Below are positions 25,262 through 33,082 of a DNA stretch of 33,082 nucleotides, piece by piece (the stretch's first letter is position 1; every line of letters begins with the position of its first letter). Where the stretch lies: NCBI RefSeq assembly GCF_009881055.1, contig NZ_WXFG01000001.1, positions 1 through 33,082 on the forward strand, in the 5' to 3' direction. The notes beneath the pieces were generated by a model. It was not told where the DNA came from. It worked only from the letters and a program-made list of their open reading frames with translations, and did no database searches. The position numbers were made by a program, and so were the translations under genes. Source of the DNA: Peptoclostridium sp. (GTDB taxonomy: Bacteria; Bacillota; Clostridia; Peptostreptococcales; Peptostreptococcaceae).

Positions 25262-27316
25262 ATGTCAGGCAGAAACGTCCAAGAAAAAAAGGCAGATGAG
25301 AAAAAGAAATTTTCGCTCAACAGACACGATATCAGAACGAGGCTAATAGTGCTCATTATGATTTCAATAATAACGCCGCTGGCGGTGTTCGGTTTCTTTT
25401 CGTACAAGAAATCATACGAGCTGCTTGAAAACAAGCTCCTTGTGACATCCCAGCAGACGATTGACGCAACTCAGTATTATGTAAATCAGTTTATAAATGC
25501 AATGGAAAGCCAGCTTTTGGCTATTGGCGACAACAAAAACATAAAATCTGCGTTATCATCTGATCTTGCAGTAGAAGGCAATGCCAGGGAAGTGCTCGAT
25601 GCTACGCAAAAGAGCAATCCTGACGCGCTCGGAGTATACATTGGGCTTGCAGACGGCAGGACCTACCTGTATCCGCAGCAAGAGCTCCCTGATGGATACG
25701 ATCCAAGGGAGAGGCAGTGGTACAAGGCTGCGCTTGAGAATTCAGGAGAGGTTGTAGTCTCGGAGCCATACATAGATGCATTTACACAGAAGATGGTAAT
25801 AACAATTTCAAAGACGGTTAGTGACGCTGCAGGTAATCTTACGGGCGTAGTAGCCATGGACATAGACACTTCGAGCATAGCGGCGAAGGTTGCAAAGCTG
25901 TCGATAGGCAAGAACGGCTATGTGTCGCTTGTGTCGAATGACGGAATTACAATAGTTCATCCGGATGAGTCTATAATAGGAACAGAAAAGGTTAAAGAGC
26001 TCGGCTTCTGGCAGGCTGTAAGTTCGAGCGAAAAAGGCACTCAAAAATATGAGTACGAAGGCAAACAAAGATTCATGGCTTTCTCTACGGACGCTGACAC
26101 AGGCTGGAAGATTATAGCGTCGATGGACGTGGACGAACTGCTTGCCGACACTAATGTGATCAAAAAATTTGCTGTAGGAGCTGTCATATTCGGTCTTGTT
26201 GCTGCAGTTGCAATAGCGCTGCTTATTGCAAATAATGTAGCTAAGCCTCTGGCAGAAGGCGTTGCGTATCTTAGAAGGATGGCAGACGGTGATTTTACAT
26301 CTGAAATATCAAGAGAAAGCCTGGAAAGACAAGACGAGCTGGGCGAGATTGCAAAGGCTATAGACAAGCTTCAGGAGGATCTCAAGTCGCTCCTTGGAAA
26401 TATAATTCAATCGACATACACAGTTGGTGATTCTGCAGCTGCGCTTGCGGATATTTCAAATCAGTCAACTCGTGCCGCAGAGGAAGTGGCAAGGACTGTT
26501 GAAGAGATTTCAAGAGGAGCGGAGGAGCAGGCCGGCGATACAGAGCGGGGATCTACAAAGATGCTCCACATTTCGCACATGATGGAGGAGATATCGAGCA
26601 AGGCTGCTGAAATGACCCAGATTTCGAGATCGACAGGAGAACTTGCTGAAAAGGGTATAGAGATAGTAAAAGACCTTACAGACAAAAATGAGCAAAGCAG
26701 CAAGGCTTCAGGTGAGGTTGACAGCATAGTAAACAGGGTGGCAAAGGATGTTGCAGGAATTGGTGCAATACTTGAAACAATAGTGTCGATAGCAGAGCAG
26801 ACAAATCTGCTTGCCCTGAATGCCAACATAGAAGCTGCAAGAGCAGGTGAGCACGGAAAAGGCTTTGCGGTAGTTGCCGAAGAGGTAAGAAAGCTCTCGG
26901 AAGAATCATCCAAGTCAGCTGAAGAGATAAGGGGCATAATACAGCAGATACAGGGCAGCACTGCCGAGGCTATAGTTGCCATGGAAAAAGCAGACAGCGC
27001 ATCTAAGCAGCAGAGCTCGTCGGTTGGCCAGACTAATGAAGTTTTCGCGACTATTTCGAAGGCTCTTGGAAATCTGGCGGGTTATATAAATGAGATGCAA
27101 AAGGACATTGCGGGTATGAACGTACAAAAGGAAGAGATGGAAGGCCTTATGCAGAACATAGCTTCTTCTGCGCAGCAGTCTTCTGCAGCCACCGAAGAAG
27201 TTTCGGCGGCCATGGAGGAGCAGCTTGCTTCAATGGAGGAGCTTTCCAGCAATGCCCAGAATCTTGAAGCACTTTCAGACGATTTGAAGACACAGGTTCA
27301 GCGATTCAGAATATAA
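25262..27316 (+). CDS. Methyl-accepting chemotaxis protein with dCache sensor
   Basis: 684-aa transmembrane receptor. TM1 about 28-50, an extracellular dCache domain about 50-300 (with [39 protein letters not shown] and [14 protein letters not shown]), TM2 about 303-325, HAMP about 326-380, then the signalling domain with the conserved tip [19 protein letters not shown] near 510. DPRxRxWYxxA in the Cache domain is typical of sensors for amino acids or organic acids. There is no C-terminal CheR-binding pentapeptide. GGAGGAG precedes the ATG. Confidence 0.95.
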
Positions 27317-27656: not shown

Positions 27657-28781
27657 ATGAAATTTATTGATTTGACTAAAAAGCTCAAAAAAGCTGCTGT
27701 ACTCACTCTTGTAGCAACCGTGCTTGTTACTTCTGTTGTGGGATGCGCTCCTAAGGAGAAGGCTGCAACTGAGTCGGCTGAGAAGGTTGACGATTATACT
27801 GTCAAGCTTGGCTACTATAACTGCGACCACATGGTGGCAGCCTGTGTTGGTGAAGCCGCGGGAATATACAAGGAGCTTGGACTTAACGTTGAAATAACAG
27901 GAAACGGAAAAGTGCCTGAAGCAATGGCTGCAGGACAAATGGACGTTGGCTACATAGGAGCAACGGGACTTTCAGAGGCTTCTACAAAGGGTGCTCCTAT
28001 AATGATAGCGGCGACTAACCACCTTGGAGGCTCGATGTATCTTGTTGTTGCAAACGACATCAAAAAGCCTGAAGATCTTTACGGACAGCCTGTTGCACTG
28101 AGCTCAGACCTTTCAACAGACGAAGCCTGGCTGCTTGCATACGGCCCTCAGACTGGACTCCCTGCTGATTCCAGCAAGTTCCAGTGCCTTGAGTTCGGTT
28201 CACAGGCAGACAAGTATCTTGCTTTAAAGACAGGACAGATAAAGGCTTTCACTTGCTGTGACCCTTGGGGCTCTATGGCTGAATTCGAAGGTACAGGCAA
28301 GATAATGGGTACATATCTTGAAATGGACGGACAGCTTGGAGTTTGCTGCGTATACGCAATGAACAAGAATTTCCAAAAGGAGCATCCGGAGCTAGCTAAG
28401 AAGATGGTTCTGGCGCATACAAAATCAATGGAGTACATATATACACACCCTTTAGAAGCCGCCAAGATATTTGCTGAATACTACAAGGTTCCAGTAGAGG
28501 TTGCTGAAATGACAATATACAAAAAGACAGTAGGCGAAGGAAGAACCCTTAGCTGGAAGATGGACGAACAGGCTCATAAGCATGCGCTTGAAGTTTACAA
28601 GAAGTTCAACATAATGGAAAATGTTCCGAACTATGACGATATAGCAATGAAGGACATACTCAAGGAATCAGGAGCTGATGACTTTGACCAATTCATAAAG
28701 GAGAAGGTAGACCCTGTATTCCCAATGGGAATGAGCTTCGAGGATTGGAAAGCCAAGGCTTTAGAAATAGACCCTCAATAA
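27657..28781 (+). CDS. saoB: Cys-rich ABC transporter substrate-binding lipoprotein (SaoB-like)
   Basis: 374-aa periplasmic-type binding protein of the NMT1/SsuA/TauA class. Signal peptide 1-29 with lipobox SVVG-Cys30, so it is anchored outside the membrane. The mature part has seven cysteines: C56, C63, C177, the pair C200-C201 and the pair C230-C231. In the NMT1 fold the YNCDHMVAAC stretch borders the ligand cleft. Cysteine pairs are rare in exported binding proteins and suggest capture of a thiophilic ligand, such as a mercury-like metal or organometal (inference). GGAGGCGGAG precedes the ATG. The family name is from memory. Confidence 0.82.
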   Translation: MKFIDLTKKLKKAAVLTLVATVLVTSVVGCAPKEKAATESAEKVDDYTVKLGYYNCDHMVAACVGEAAGIYKELGLNVEITGNGKVPEAMAAGQMDVGYIGATGLSEASTKGAPIMIAATNHLGGSMYLVVANDIKKPEDLYGQPVALSSDLSTDEAWLLAYGPQTGLPADSSKFQCLEFGSQADKYLALKTGQIKAFTCCDPWGSMAEFEGTGKIMGTYLEMDGQLGVCCVYAMNKNFQKEHPELAKKMVLAHTKSMEYIYTHPLEAAKIFAEYYKVPVEVAEMTIYKKTVGEGRTLSWKMDEQAHKHALEVYKKFNIMENVPNYDDIAMKDILKESGADDFDQFIKEKVDPVFPMGMSFEDWKAKALEIDPQ

Positions 28782-28798
28782 TCGGCATAAGCAGGCTA

Positions 28799-28838
28799 AT
28801 AAAATCTTAGAGGTGTCCTTGTGGCACCTCTGGTTTTA
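28799..28838 (+). terminator. Terminator or attenuator between the binding protein and permease genes
   Basis: TAAAATC-TT-AGAGGTG-T-CC pairs with GG-CACCTCT-G-GTTTTA around TTGT; the T run is short. Such partial terminators often make the binding protein more abundant than the membrane parts. Confidence 0.65.
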
Positions 28839-28901
28839 TGTTGGATTATATGCTTCCACTGATTATCTTCTATGTATTTTCTACGTAAGGAGAGTGACGA
28901 T

Positions 28902-29714
28902 ATGGAGAACAATAGAGCTGTCGTTTATAACGGTAGTTTCAAATATGCGGAGATAAAAAAACAGAACATAGTCGAAATGCTCTACAAGCTGATTATGGCA
29001 GCGCTCCTGTTTGGAATATGGCAGATAGCGGCCATGAGAATAGACAGCCAGCTGCTGTTGCCTTATCCTGCAGTTACAATGAAGGCGCTTCTTGAGTGTG
29101 TTACAGATCCAGAGACTGTCAAAAACATATTGATAACTCTTGGCAGGGTAATGAAAGGTTTTGTTTTTGCCATGCTTTTCGGACTTCCGCTCGGATTTCT
29201 TATGGGTTTTTCAAAGCTTGCGGACAAGCTACTCGGAGGCTTTATAGACTCTATAAGACAGGTTCCCATAATGGCGTGGGTTCCTCTTACGATTGTATGG
29301 TTTGGGATAGGCGATGGGCCGACAATATTCCTTATAGCCTTTTCGGGAATATTCCCTGTAATACTCAACACAATACAGGGGGTAAAAGGCATATCTAAGG
29401 ACTACTACAATGCGGCCAGGAGCATGGGCGCAGGAAGAATCAGCGTATTTTTCAACATAATACTGCCAGCTTCACTGCCTGACATACTAACTGCTGCAAG
29501 GATTGCTATAGGCGCCGGATGGATGAGCGTTATCTGAGCGGAGTTCATTGCTACGAGTGCCGGTCTCGGCTACTCCATGGTTGAAGCGCAAACGAGAATG
29601 CAGACTGAAAGGCTGGTTGCGCTGATGTTTTTTGCGGCTATAGTAGGTTTCTTGATAGACAGGGTAATACAGTATCTCAACAAGGCTATCACCAAATGGA
29701 GGTATGCTGAATAA
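28902..29714 (+). CDS. saoP: ABC transporter permease, selenoprotein with Sec212 (SaoP-like)
   Basis: 270-aa BPD_transp_1 permease of the SsuC/TauC type, if TGA at 29535-29537 is read as selenocysteine. Residues 1-211 carry the membrane helices and the ATPase-contact loop (NAARSMGAGRISVFFNIILP). After the TGA the same frame continues 58 residues (AEFIATSAGLGYSMVEAQTR, then a last helix) that complete a normal permease C-terminus and stop with TAA overlapping the ATPase start. Sec lies in the helix just after that loop. A SECIS-like hairpin follows at 29555. ATG 28902 has AAGGAG at the right distance; an in-frame ATG at 28872 does not. A nonsense mutation is the alternative, less likely given the second Sec gene nearby. 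Confidence 0.82.
29555..29575 (+). promoter_or_regulatory. SECIS-like hairpin of the permease gene
   Basis: GAG-T-GCC pairs with GGC-TA-CTC around the loop GGTCTC; the loop starts 24 nt after the UGA. A U (29558) sits three pairs below the loop and the loop reads GGUCU, the same two features that SelB recognises in E. coli fdhF (bulged U17 and loop GGUCU). Pairing below the GAG/CTC step is poor. Confidence 0.7.
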
Positions 29715-30469
29715 TGAATCTTGAAATTCGCGACATAAATAAGACTTTCAAAAATGAAAAAACATTCAATCACGTGCTCGAAGACATAAGCCTCACGGTT
29801 GAAAAGGGACAGTTCGTATCGCTGCTTGGGCCATCAGGCTGCGGCAAGACGACTCTGCTTACAATTATTGCAGGCTTTCAGCAGGCGGACTCGGGGGATA
29901 TTCTTGTAGAGGGTAAAAGGGTCACAAAGCCCGGCCCTGACAGAGGCTTTGTATTCCAAAACTACGCACTCTTCCCATGGATGAACGTAAGAGACAACAT
30001 AATGTTTCCTATGAAGCAGCAGGGCATGAAAAAAGAAGAAAGGGAAAAAAAGCTTGCGGAGTTACTTAAGCTTGCTCACCTTGAAGGCAATGAAAAGCTG
30101 TTTCCGCACCAGATATCGGGCGGAATGAAGCAAAGGACTGCTGTGGTTAGGGCGCTTGCATGCCAGCCTGAGCTGCTCCTTATGGACGAGCCGCTAGGGG
30201 CAGTGGACTTCCAGATGAGGCAGCTGCTCCAGGAGGAGCTGGAGGACCTGGTGATAAACGCCAAGACAACGGCTGTAATGGTAACTCACGATGTCGAGGA
30301 AGCCATATACATGAGCGACAGGGTAATAGTCATGTCGAGAGACAAGGGCAAAATACTCGAGGACATGAGCATAGACATGGAAAGGCCCAGGGACAGAAAG
30401 AGCGAACGCTACAATGAATACAAGGAAATGCTAACAGACGCTCTAAAAGAGGCCCTCGCAGGCAAATAG
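29714..30469 (+). CDS. saoA: ABC transporter ATP-binding protein (SaoA-like)
   Basis: 251-aa ATPase of the SsuB/TauB type that energises the permease. Walker A GPSGCGKTT near 40, Q-loop FQNYALFPWM near 82, signature ISGGMKQR near 134, Walker B LLLMDEPLGAVD near 155 and switch His in VTHDVEEA. Its ATG overlaps the permease stop, which itself supports translation of the permease through the internal UGA. Family name from memory; the general ATPase call is certain. Confidence 0.88.
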   Translation: MNLEIRDINKTFKNEKTFNHVLEDISLTVEKGQFVSLLGPSGCGKTTLLTIIAGFQQADSGDILVEGKRVTKPGPDRGFVFQNYALFPWMNVRDNIMFPMKQQGMKKEEREKKLAELLKLAHLEGNEKLFPHQISGGMKQRTAVVRALACQPELLLMDEPLGAVDFQMRQLLQEELEDLVINAKTTAVMVTHDVEEAIYMSDRVIVMSRDKGKILEDMSIDMERPRDRKSERYNEYKEMLTDALKEALAGK

Positions 30470-30507
30470 AAAATTCACCAATTAAAAAACTATAAGGGGA
30501 GATTTAA

Positions 30508-30840
30508 ATGAAGGTGGCATACGTAATAAGCTCGGACAACTCAAGAAAAATACTTAGGGACATGATAATACCTCAGCTTGAGCAGGGAATACACGGAGCT
30601 GAAGTTGTGGGAATGTTTTTTGTATTTGACAACACATTCATGTTGCTAGAGGGCACTGAAATAGGAGAAAGACTGTCGGCGCTTCACGAAAAGACTGGTA
30701 TGGTGCTGCTGGCATGCGATCAGTGCGCAATTGAAAGGGAAATACAGGACAGACTAGTGCCTGGAGCTGCTATAGGATGTTTCCCTATACTTTATCCGAC
30801 CCTGGGATCGGCGGGAGCTGAACAAATTATAACGCTATAG
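30508..30840 (+). CDS. saoD: Small DsrE-like protein (SaoD-like)
   Basis: 110-aa cytoplasmic protein resembling DsrE/DsrF-like sulfur-handling proteins: a beta-alpha start (MKVAYVISSDNSRKILRDMI), a hydrophobic strand (VVGMFFVFDNTFMLLEG) and a cysteine pair in LLACDQCAIERE, plus a Cys in AAIGCFPILYPTLGSAGAEQ. DsrE-like proteins carry sulfur or reduced chalcogen on a Cys; here it could carry a metal-thiolate or selenium/sulfur species between transporter and lyase (inference). GGGGAG precedes the ATG. It is 38 bp after the ATPase gene. Confidence 0.75.
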   Translation: MKVAYVISSDNSRKILRDMIIPQLEQGIHGAEVVGMFFVFDNTFMLLEGTEIGERLSALHEKTGMVLLACDQCAIEREIQDRLVPGAAIGCFPILYPTLGSAGAEQIITL

Positions 30841-30860
30841 GCAAGAGTGCATATGAAAAT

Positions 30861-30935
30861 GGGCGGCTCGAAGGCAAAAAAAAGGAAACTGTTGGGGCAG
30901 TTTCCTGAATCGCCCTATAAACTTTTCGTTTATAG
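30861..30935 (+). ncRNA. Structured leader between the DsrE-like and MerB-like genes
   Basis: Three perfect helices in 75 nt: GGGCG (30861-30865) with CGCCC (30911-30915) enclosing AGGAAACTG (30883-30891) with CAGTTTCCT (30898-30906), then CTATAAAC (30915-30922) with GTTTATAG (30928-30935). No T tract follows either hairpin, so it is not a plain terminator. I do not recognise a known riboswitch. Confidence 0.5.
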
Positions 30936-30990
30936 AGTTCTCCATAAACAATTATACCTATAAATTTTATAAATGGGAAGTGGTTTTTGC

Positions 30991-31704
30991 ATGGAGAGTT
31001 TCAATATCAAAGGCAATGATGCCATAAAGCGGCATGTAAGCGAAATGGAGTTCAAGTATCATAAGGCTGAAAGGCTGCTTATAGACAGTATGGATTCAAG
31101 GCTTGAAGCAGACGAGAGAAAAGTGAGAATGCACATTATAAACAGCATGATAGAGAGCGCTGCTCCTTATAACTTCAGATACATTCAGGCAGATGCCCAG
31201 GAAAAGCTTGGAATGAGCGAAGAAAATATAAAGGCCGCAATCGGAAGAATAATAGAGAAAAAAGCTGCAGTTGCTGACGAAGAAGAGAACATAAATTTTA
31301 TATACCCTGTCTCCGGCTTTCCTACAAATCACCAGATAACTCTTGAGGACGGTAGGAGCTTTAGTGCGATGTGCGCAGTGGACGGTATGGGCTGCGCCTT
31401 TACTTTCAAACAGAACATAAAGGTCAATTCAAAATGCAGCGAGTGCGGAGCTGACGTGGCTGTGGAGATAAGGGACGGCAAGATAGTAAGCCTTTCGCCT
31501 GAAGCGGCGCACGTGCTTCACGTGGATCTCAACAGCAGCCAGAACTGGTCTGGCAGCTGCTGAAATATAATGAACTTCTTCTGTACGAAGGAGCATTATG
31601 ATTCATGGGTCAAGAGCATGGAGCTTCCGGAAAATGAGATATTCTGCCTTGAGACTAAAGAAGCCATATGGGTTTCCAAGATGCTTTTCAGCTTGGAAGA
31701 CTAG
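30991..31704 (+). CDS. saoL: MerB-like organometal lyase, selenoprotein with Sec191 (SaoL-like)
   Basis: 237 aa when TGA 31561-31563 is read as selenocysteine. About 95 residues of helical N-terminus precede an alkylmercury-lyase core: CAVD (Cys128, Asp131) matches MerB C96/D99, IKVNSKCSECG (Cys149) matches the structural C117 region, and SGSC-U-NIMNFF places Sec191 exactly where MerB has catalytic Cys159 before its HVHFF stretch. The frame continues 46 residues past the UGA with MerB-like sequence. MerB breaks carbon-mercury bonds; a selenolate would bind soft metals still more strongly. ATG 30991 has GGAAGTGG 8 nt upstream, unlike ATG 30973. A truncated 190-aa protein is the alternative but would lack a catalytic residue. 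Confidence 0.85.
31575..31593 (+). promoter_or_regulatory. SECIS-like hairpin of the MerB-like gene
   Basis: CTTCTTC (31575-31581) pairs with GAAGGAG (31587-31593), seven pairs with one U-G, around the loop TGTAC. The loop starts 18 nt after the UGA, the same distance as in E. coli fdhF, and has GU at its second and third positions. Confidence 0.72.
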
Positions 31705-31736
31705 TCAAATCAACTAATTTATGAGGAGGAAAGCTT

Positions 31737-32891
31737 TTGAAAGAGTTGCCGGAAATATTCGAAGACTTCAGTGAAGCCAGAAAGGAAGGCTTCTTGAAAA
31801 TGAAAGACATAAAAGAAAGCGGCAGGAAGGTTGTTGGCATATTCTGCACATACACCCCGAAGGAGATAATAATGGCAGCTGATGCCGTTGCCGTAGGTCT
31901 TTGCGGCACGAGCGAGGAACCTATACCTGATGCGGAAAAAGATCTGCCAAGGAACCTGTGTCCACTCATAAAGTCAAGCTACGGCTTTGCTGTGACGGAC
32001 AAGTGTCCGTACTTTTATTTCTCAGATCTGCTGGTAGGCGAGACTACATGCGACGGCAAAAAGAAGATGTTTGAATTGCTTGGCGATATAAAGCCTGTGC
32101 ATGTTATGCAACTTCCGCAGACATATGACTGCAGCGAGGCTCTTAAACTTTGGAAAAACGAGATTATAAAGCTGAAGGAAAGGCTTGAGAAGGATCTTGG
32201 CGTTGAAATAACTGATGAAAAACTTAAGGCGGCAATAAAGCTCAGAAATCAGGAAAGAAGAGTTCTAAGAGAGTTCTACAATCTGTCGATGGCGTGTCCT
32301 CCGCCTATGAGCGGCTATGAAATGCACCAGCTGCTGTATGGTTCTGAGTTCAAGTTCGACAGGCTGGAGTTTATTGAGAACATGAAGGGCATAATCGACA
32401 AGATAAGGTCGGACTACGAAGCCGGCAGCAGGCCTATTTCAGACAAGGCCCCAAGGATAATGGTTACAGGCTGCCCAACAGGAGGCGTTGCCGACAAGGT
32501 CATAAAGGCCATAGAAGACAGCGGTGGGGTTGTCGTATGCTATGAAAACTGCGGCGGTGCCAAGGAGAAGGAGACGCTTGTGGACGAAAGCAAGGACTGT
32601 TACGATGCGCTTGCTGAAAAGTACCTTAACATTGCATGCTCAGTAATGTCTCCGAACCAGGCAAGATACGAGTTGCTGTCGGAGCTGGCAGACAGATTCA
32701 AGGTCGATGGAGTCGTGGAAATAGTCCTTCAGGCCTGTCACACATATAACGTCGAATCTTTCCAGGTCAAAAAGCACGTTACCGGAAAGCTGGGACTTCC
32801 ATATCTGTATCTTGAAACAGATTATTCGAAATCGGATTCTGGCCAGATACTGACTCGTGTTGGGGCGTTCCTTGAGATGATAGACAAATAA
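31737..32891 (+). CDS. Double-cubane-cluster-type anaerobic reductase (2-hydroxyacyl-CoA dehydratase D-like family)
   Basis: 384-aa member of the HgdB/FldB/BcrC-like family. Conserved cysteines lie in GIFCTYTPKEIIMAADAV, VGLCGTSEEP, NLCPLIKSSYGF and DKCPYFYFSD in the first third, GCPTGG, CYENCGGAKE and QACHTYNVESFQVK later, and it lacks the partner subunit needed for a dehydratase, so the stand-alone double-cubane reductase type fits best. Such proteins catalyse ATP-driven low-potential reductions with an activase not seen in this window. The start is TTG 31737 after GAGGAGGA, 32 bp after the MerB-like gene without a terminator, so a shared transcript is likely. Link to organometal chemistry is inference. 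Confidence 0.85.
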   Translation: MKELPEIFEDFSEARKEGFLKMKDIKESGRKVVGIFCTYTPKEIIMAADAVAVGLCGTSEEPIPDAEKDLPRNLCPLIKSSYGFAVTDKCPYFYFSDLLVGETTCDGKKKMFELLGDIKPVHVMQLPQTYDCSEALKLWKNEIIKLKERLEKDLGVEITDEKLKAAIKLRNQERRVLREFYNLSMACPPPMSGYEMHQLLYGSEFKFDRLEFIENMKGIIDKIRSDYEAGSRPISDKAPRIMVTGCPTGGVADKVIKAIEDSGGVVVCYENCGGAKEKETLVDESKDCYDALAEKYLNIACSVMSPNQARYELLSELADRFKVDGVVEIVLQACHTYNVESFQVKKHVTGKLGLPYLYLETDYSKSDSGQILTRVGAFLEMIDK

Positions 32892-33019
32892 TAAACGCAA
32901 CAAGCAGATGAATTATATGTTGAAAAAGAAAAGAGCCTTGAGTACCTCATTCTTATGGAGTCTGTCAATAATTATGTGTATGATTCCTTAAAAAAGATAT
33001 ATTGTTCTATTGGATGCTT

Positions 33020-33058
33020 GCCTGGAAAGCTTTTAAACATGAGCCTTCCAGGCTTTTT
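33020..33058 (+). terminator. Terminator at the end of the selenoprotein operon
   Basis: GCCTGGAA (33020-33027) pairs with TTCCAGGC (33046-33053), with TTTTT after it. The 128 bp between the reductase stop and this hairpin contain only a start-less open frame. Confidence 0.85.
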
Positions 33059-33082
33059 ATTACTTAAATTAAATATTTTGCC

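Follow-up and report, generated by a model that had tools for sequence, protein, structure and literature searches.

A Peptoclostridium operon joining SAO genes, among them one for a MerB-like predicted selenoprotein, to a double-cubane reductase gene

Four described systems stand closest to the locus reported here, a six-gene plus-strand operon at 27657-32891 of a 33,082-nucleotide stretch of Peptoclostridium sp. DNA (contig NZ_WXFG01000001.1, positions 1 to 33,082), which we call the window. First, MerB is the organomercurial lyase of mer operons; its chemistry depends on a metal capable of being held by two thiolates, and we take C96, D99 and C159 to be its catalytic residues. Second, SsuABC and TauABC are importers of organosulfonates. 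Third, a double-cubane cluster (DCC) protein, presumably from Carboxydothermus, is represented by PDB entries 6eno and 7yyl. Fourth, the selenocysteine (Sec)-assisted organometallic (SAO) system of Haft and Gwadz (2023) is described in a review (PMC13188914) as an operon containing six genes for selenoproteins and is counted there among the larger operons of this kind. The Peptoclostridium operon holds the SaoX-P-A-D-L half of SAO together with a DCC reductase gene, and we consider it fairly probable that it serves to import a soft-metal compound, whose carbon-metal bond would be cleaved by the Cys, Asp and predicted Sec of SaoL. All six products scored above the cut-offs of curated NCBIfam equivalog models, and the features of the locus are as follows.

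27657-28781, plus strand: saoX, substrate-binding lipoprotein (NF040735, 530.5 bits, cut-off 300; lipobox C30; no TGA)
28807-28833, plus strand: terminator-like hairpin between saoX and saoP (pattern scan; fold of 28781-28830, z -1.99)
28902-29714, plus strand: saoP, ABC permease (NF040733, 425.6 bits, cut-off 295; predicted selenocysteine 212 in GWMSVI-U-AEF)
29535-29537, plus strand: in-frame TGA, codon 212 of saoP, the one TGA in the gene
29714-30469, plus strand: saoA, ABC ATPase (NF040729, 447.3 bits, cut-off 360)
30508-30840, plus strand: saoD, DsrE-related small protein (NF040732, 191.7 bits, cut-off 169)
30991-31704, plus strand: saoL, MerB-like lyase (SaoL equivalog model, 224.2 bits, cut-off 140; predicted selenocysteine 191)
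31561-31605, plus strand: in-frame TGA (31561-31563, codon 191 of saoL) and the SECIS-like (selenocysteine insertion sequence-like) hairpin that starts at it
31737-32891, plus strand: double-cubane-cluster reductase of the HGD-D family (NF040772, 546.3 bits, cut-off 350; TTG start; 32 bases 3' of saoL)
33020-33053, plus strand: terminator-like hairpin 3' of the reductase gene (fold of 33010-33075, z -3.55; T-rich tail)

An initial annotation, made from the letters of the window, had described six genes on one strand with short gaps, and the gaps indeed measure -1 (an overlap), 32, 38, 120 and 150 bases. Its ATPase, DsrE-like protein and double-cubane-type reductase were each matched by the corresponding model (NF040729, NF040732 and NF040772). 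Among the family names that it had suggested, SaoP, SaoA, SaoD and SaoL were borne out by curated models, and SaoB was not: the lipoprotein is SaoX, and the true SaoB, which has a TGA, is encoded elsewhere in the genome. It had also assigned one TGA each to the lipoprotein, the permease and the MerB homologue, which holds for SaoP (29535) and SaoL (31561); the lipoprotein gene and the other three genes have none. The contig ends at 33082, shortly past the hairpin that follows the operon.

The remaining SAO genes were found together at about 17.3-20.0 kb of contig 25 of the same genome, all above the curated cut-offs: SaoB (234.1 bits, cut-off 140), SaoC (193.1, cut-off 80), SaoE (550.1, cut-off 325) and SaoT (116.6, cut-off 65). 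SaoB and SaoT contain one TGA each (motifs DCU and TCAUC), so that Sec is predicted in SaoP, SaoL, SaoB and SaoT. Judged by the models, the SAO system of this genome is confirmed and complete, with all nine Sao proteins that are known from models. It differs from the published system in several features. The sao genes are divided over two contigs, at least 17 kb separating the operon, at its contig's end, from those of contig 25, whereas all nine lie in one cluster at five other loci (L029, L030, L031, L048 and L050 in our numbering, where L marks loci and G genomes). Moreover, the operon extends to a double-cubane reductase gene, neither SaoX nor SaoC has a Sec codon, and the TGA of SaoT (L042 11231-11485, G000:C25; NTCAUC) stands two codons beyond that of G383 (NTUPGC) and G469 (NTUPSC). 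The remaining five SaoT sequences read NTCxCC. SaoC of this genome (L042 9635-10111, G000:C25) terminates in Cys-Cys-Asp, unlike the Cys-Cys carboxyl end behind the family name.

We take the TGAs of SaoP and SaoL as selenocysteine codons, with recoding predicted from comparison with relatives, whose agreement at these columns exceeds chance. Column 212 of SaoP is TGA in seven of the eight loci read and Cys in one (L030), and the 120 relatives listed, from 1035 matches, comprise 77 with Cys, 36 that end exactly there and seven with Trp, which probably reflects TGA translated under a code where it means Trp. The SaoL column is TGA in seven of nine loci (the window, L018, L020, L029, L048, L049 and L050) and Cys in two (L030 and L031), a count to which L032 and L033, TGA at this column and below the SaoL cut-off, and L019, whose codon was not read, do not belong. 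As many as 102 of 103 SaoL database relatives end at the Cys directly before the TGA column, a figure that is not a Sec/Cys ratio, as the search favours query-like relatives and Cys forms exist in L030 and L031. The hairpin that starts at the SaoL TGA folds at -13.7 kcal/mol (z -4.7), and none of 200 shuffles was as stable. The genome also has a tRNA-Sec (73.8 bits, cut-off 47) and SelB (388.6 bits, cut-off 242.25). The initial annotation had seen a possible objection in stop-bearing homologous loci of genomes lacking Sec decoding, and none arose: selB exceeded its cut-off in all nine genomes tested, seven of which have a TGA read in SaoP, SaoL or a MerB-like gene, while in G399 the codon was not read, G182 has Cys, and G469, G522 and G533 lie outside this test. 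In G182 the SaoP, SaoL, SaoT and SaoB sites all carry Cys, and selenium is therefore replaceable by sulfur in the SAO machinery.

It is hardly credible that the TGAs are instead real stop codons or errors in the sequence, belonging to an SsuABC-type importer in decay and a disrupted merB. The NCBI entry for a close Peptoclostridium acidaminophilum relative, a hypothetical protein of 190 residues whose last position precedes the TGA column, would suit such decay. Against this, the same columns hold TGA or Cys in distant genomes, and the reading frame and conserved residues persist past the TGA, and genuine stops were rejected; the SelB and tRNA-Sec of the genome speak against decay as well.

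SaoL resembles MerB in domain, fold and residues. The initial annotation had made a MerB-family match of the 30991-31704 product its test, and PF03243 matches SaoL with 99.1 bits (cut-off 27); the structural model of SaoL has a MerB-like fold. In HMMER alignments, C128 and D131 of SaoL align with C96 and D99 of MerB and are retained in 104 of 104 rows, and Sec191 falls on C159 (or, for MerB2, on its equivalent) in two alignments out of three and on C160 in the remaining one. The Cys, Asp and predicted Sec of SaoL are the likely counterparts of the MerB catalytic residues, the equivalence of Sec191 with C159 being favoured but not certain. The closest named match of SaoL is from P. acidaminophilum (86% identical, with 80% of the protein covered). 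In contrast with mer operons, the neighbours of saoL are SaoX, SaoP, SaoA, SaoD, the DCC reductase and, upstream, a methyl-accepting chemotaxis protein (MCP) gene, and the lyase is likely fed by an ABC importer. No merA, merT or merR gene stands beside saoL, the other window genes having been checked by eye only and no genome-wide search having been made; within this scope, the earlier view that this is not a standard mercury resistance locus is upheld.

SaoX, SaoP and SaoA are homologous to the subunits of SsuABC and TauABC, and the modelled fold of SaoX resembles nitrate/sulfonate-type binding proteins. Scores against curated models of those importers stayed below the cut-offs (SsuA family 91.2 of 163.5 bits, SsuC 144 of 347, TauC 142.8 of 342 and the taurine ATPase 223.7 of 357). 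They also differ in that SaoX has conserved cysteines (56, 201, 230 and 231, near-invariant in 121 alignment rows) and SaoP has Cys or predicted Sec. Import followed by selenolate cleavage is an inference that fits the folds and residues.

The same parts could handle an inorganic soft metal or metal-thiolate, with SaoL as a MerB-derived binding or ligand-exchange protein, not a lyase, on a detoxification and efflux route. SaoE groups with the SO_0444 Cu/Zn efflux and ArsP_1 families, and the Cys motifs of SaoX, SaoB, SaoC and SaoT fit metal handling. In addition, HgcB, the mercury-methylation ferredoxin, exceeded its cut-off in only two of the ten SaoL-bearing genomes (G399 and G400), so methylmercury is not generally self-made. 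Nevertheless, a mere binder would not need C128 and D131, the equivalents of the MerB thiol and acid/base residues, and a binding-protein-dependent importer is odd for detoxification alone, and we regard this explanation as rather unlikely. The idea that SAO works alongside mercury methylation within one cell was rejected as a general link, HgcB exceeding its cut-off in none of the seven SaoL genomes of the window's phylum.

The double-cubane reductase is the most useful new lead at this locus. Its product is homologous to the DCC protein of 7yyl and 6eno (E about 1e-76; 2.3e-76 for 7yyl), with Cys positions that match by eye, and it differs from that protein in that its gene is an operon partner of SAO genes and has no adjacent activase. 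The best-scoring activase of the genome (262 bits, cut-off 125.4) is encoded on contig 31, next to a DCC paralogue. Among the eight loci read that carry SaoX, SaoP and SaoA, six (the window, L029, L030, L031, L048 and L050) show a double-cubane gene no more than 2.5 kb away from a sao gene, and an activase adjoins it in five of these six, the window being the exception. Gene order around the DCC and SAO genes varies between lineages. Proximity by chance in the six genomes was estimated at a product of 4e-10, a rough guide only, as genomes were treated as independent (G383 and G469 are of one genus) and gene placement as random, and the two neighbourless loci were omitted. A single dedicated double-cubane subfamily was rejected, the nearest copy from each of the six loci failing to group in one clade in an approximately unbiased (AU) test (p 2.4e-62) that was set after the first tree had been inspected, kept 22 of 24 rows (a long-branch row and a truncated G309 duplicate were removed) and left out three further copies that exceed the DCC cut-off and lie no more than 10 kb from SAO genes (L031 has two of them and L048 one). 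The repeated association of different DCC lineages with SAO speaks for a functional tie; an alternative is that DCC genes cluster with selenium genes in general.

This alternative touches on the preprint PMC10418091, which links a dicubane protein and Sao genes to mlp selenium clusters. Beyond that preprint, PMC13188914 and papers citing the 2023 study, nothing on SAO, and thereby no direct SAO-DCC link, was recognised among the literature matches listed. As the preprint places these genes in or near mlp clusters tied to methyl-selenium metabolism, the substrate could also be an organoselenium compound or metal-bound selenium, SAO then serving selenium supply, not metal chemistry. The Cys residues of G182 argue against this, and no mlp genes were recognised, by eye only, among the window translations. 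With MerB chemistry requiring a metal held by two thiolates, we find selenium supply quite improbable.

Several results weigh against organometal import and cleavage by SaoL as we propose it. First, SaoL remains below the cut-offs of both curated MerB models (NF009710, 54 of 193 bits; NF033555, 51.4 of 200), and in the wild-type MerB HMMER alignment Cys190-Sec191 come to lie opposite Cys159-Cys160 through a gap. Second, the fold of the SECIS-like hairpin after the SaoP TGA was not significant (z -0.93). Third, two of the eight SAO loci, L049 and L020, have no DCC gene nearby, and the reductase is therefore not obligatory; L049 is a 9.3 kb contig of a 74% complete genome with no DCC match at E 1e-40, and the L020 genome has two DCC copies, both megabases from its SAO genes. 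Fourth, the accessible parts of the literature searched gave no substrate, activity or expression data for SAO.

If organometal cleavage is nevertheless the function, the following route can be proposed. SaoXPA would bring a soft-metal compound into the cell, the cysteines of SaoX (and SaoB) binding the metal outside and the SaoP selenolate handing it onward. SaoL would then protonate off the organic group while its own thiolate and selenolate retain the metal, which would next pass to SaoD and SaoT, and the ArsP-type permease SaoE, with SaoC, would export it. The DCC reductase, charged by the ATP-driven activase, could reduce, at low potential, the released metal, the metal-selenolate of the enzyme or the organic product. 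Going further, SAO might be an anaerobic organometal metabolism beyond resistance, in which a thiolate/selenolate chain (SaoX/SaoB, SaoP, SaoL and SaoT) feeds a selenium MerB, and the DCC reductase and activase, recruited repeatedly from different DCC lineages, replace MerA by pulling the metal off the very stable metal-selenolate or reducing the released group; we hold this extension to be doubtful. The Sao proteins of the genome include four predicted selenoproteins and comprise an importer that likely binds metal, a lyase resembling MerB and a permease for efflux, to which the reductase is added, and the recurrent double-cubane link offers a concrete second enzyme besides the lyase. If true, this would be a little-known anaerobic route of organometal breakdown, with a bearing on the cycling of mercury, tin or arsenic.

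SAO is rare and patchy in these genome samples: SaoL exceeded its cut-off in four of the 398 genomes sampled from the phylum (the present one included), in four of 113 from the order of G383 and in one of 63 from that of G309. Weak SaoL matches (L027, L028, L044 and L051) are outside the analysed set, and the contig scan, with a single-protein query, gave three loci; an alignment query would reach further. In a Geobacteraceae metagenome-assembled genome (L018, 9896-10630), SaoL with a TGA has no SaoX, SaoP or SaoA match in the 20 kb covered. A second locus type, L032 (G090:C47, 230-6414), encodes a MerB-like protein that scores below both the SaoL and MerB cut-offs and has its TGA where SaoL has the Sec codon. 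Its neighbours are an SsuC-type permease, a CopZ-type [2Fe-2S] protein that likewise has a TGA, a ferredoxin and two nitrogenase-like subunits, of which the second is truncated where the contig stops. At this locus a TGA-bearing MerB-like protein stands again, as a single case, beside an ATP-driven low-potential reductase type. At L033 (G116:C1, 8226-9400), another MerB-like protein has its TGA at this column and adjoins a CopZ-type zinc-binding protein, with no SaoX, SaoP or SaoA match in the 18 kb covered.

Within the window, the hairpin at 28807-28833 may act as a partial attenuator, which would give an excess of the binding protein SaoX over the rest of the operon. Immediately upstream of the operon lies the dCache chemoreceptor (MCP) gene at 25262-27316, with its own terminator-like hairpin behind it.
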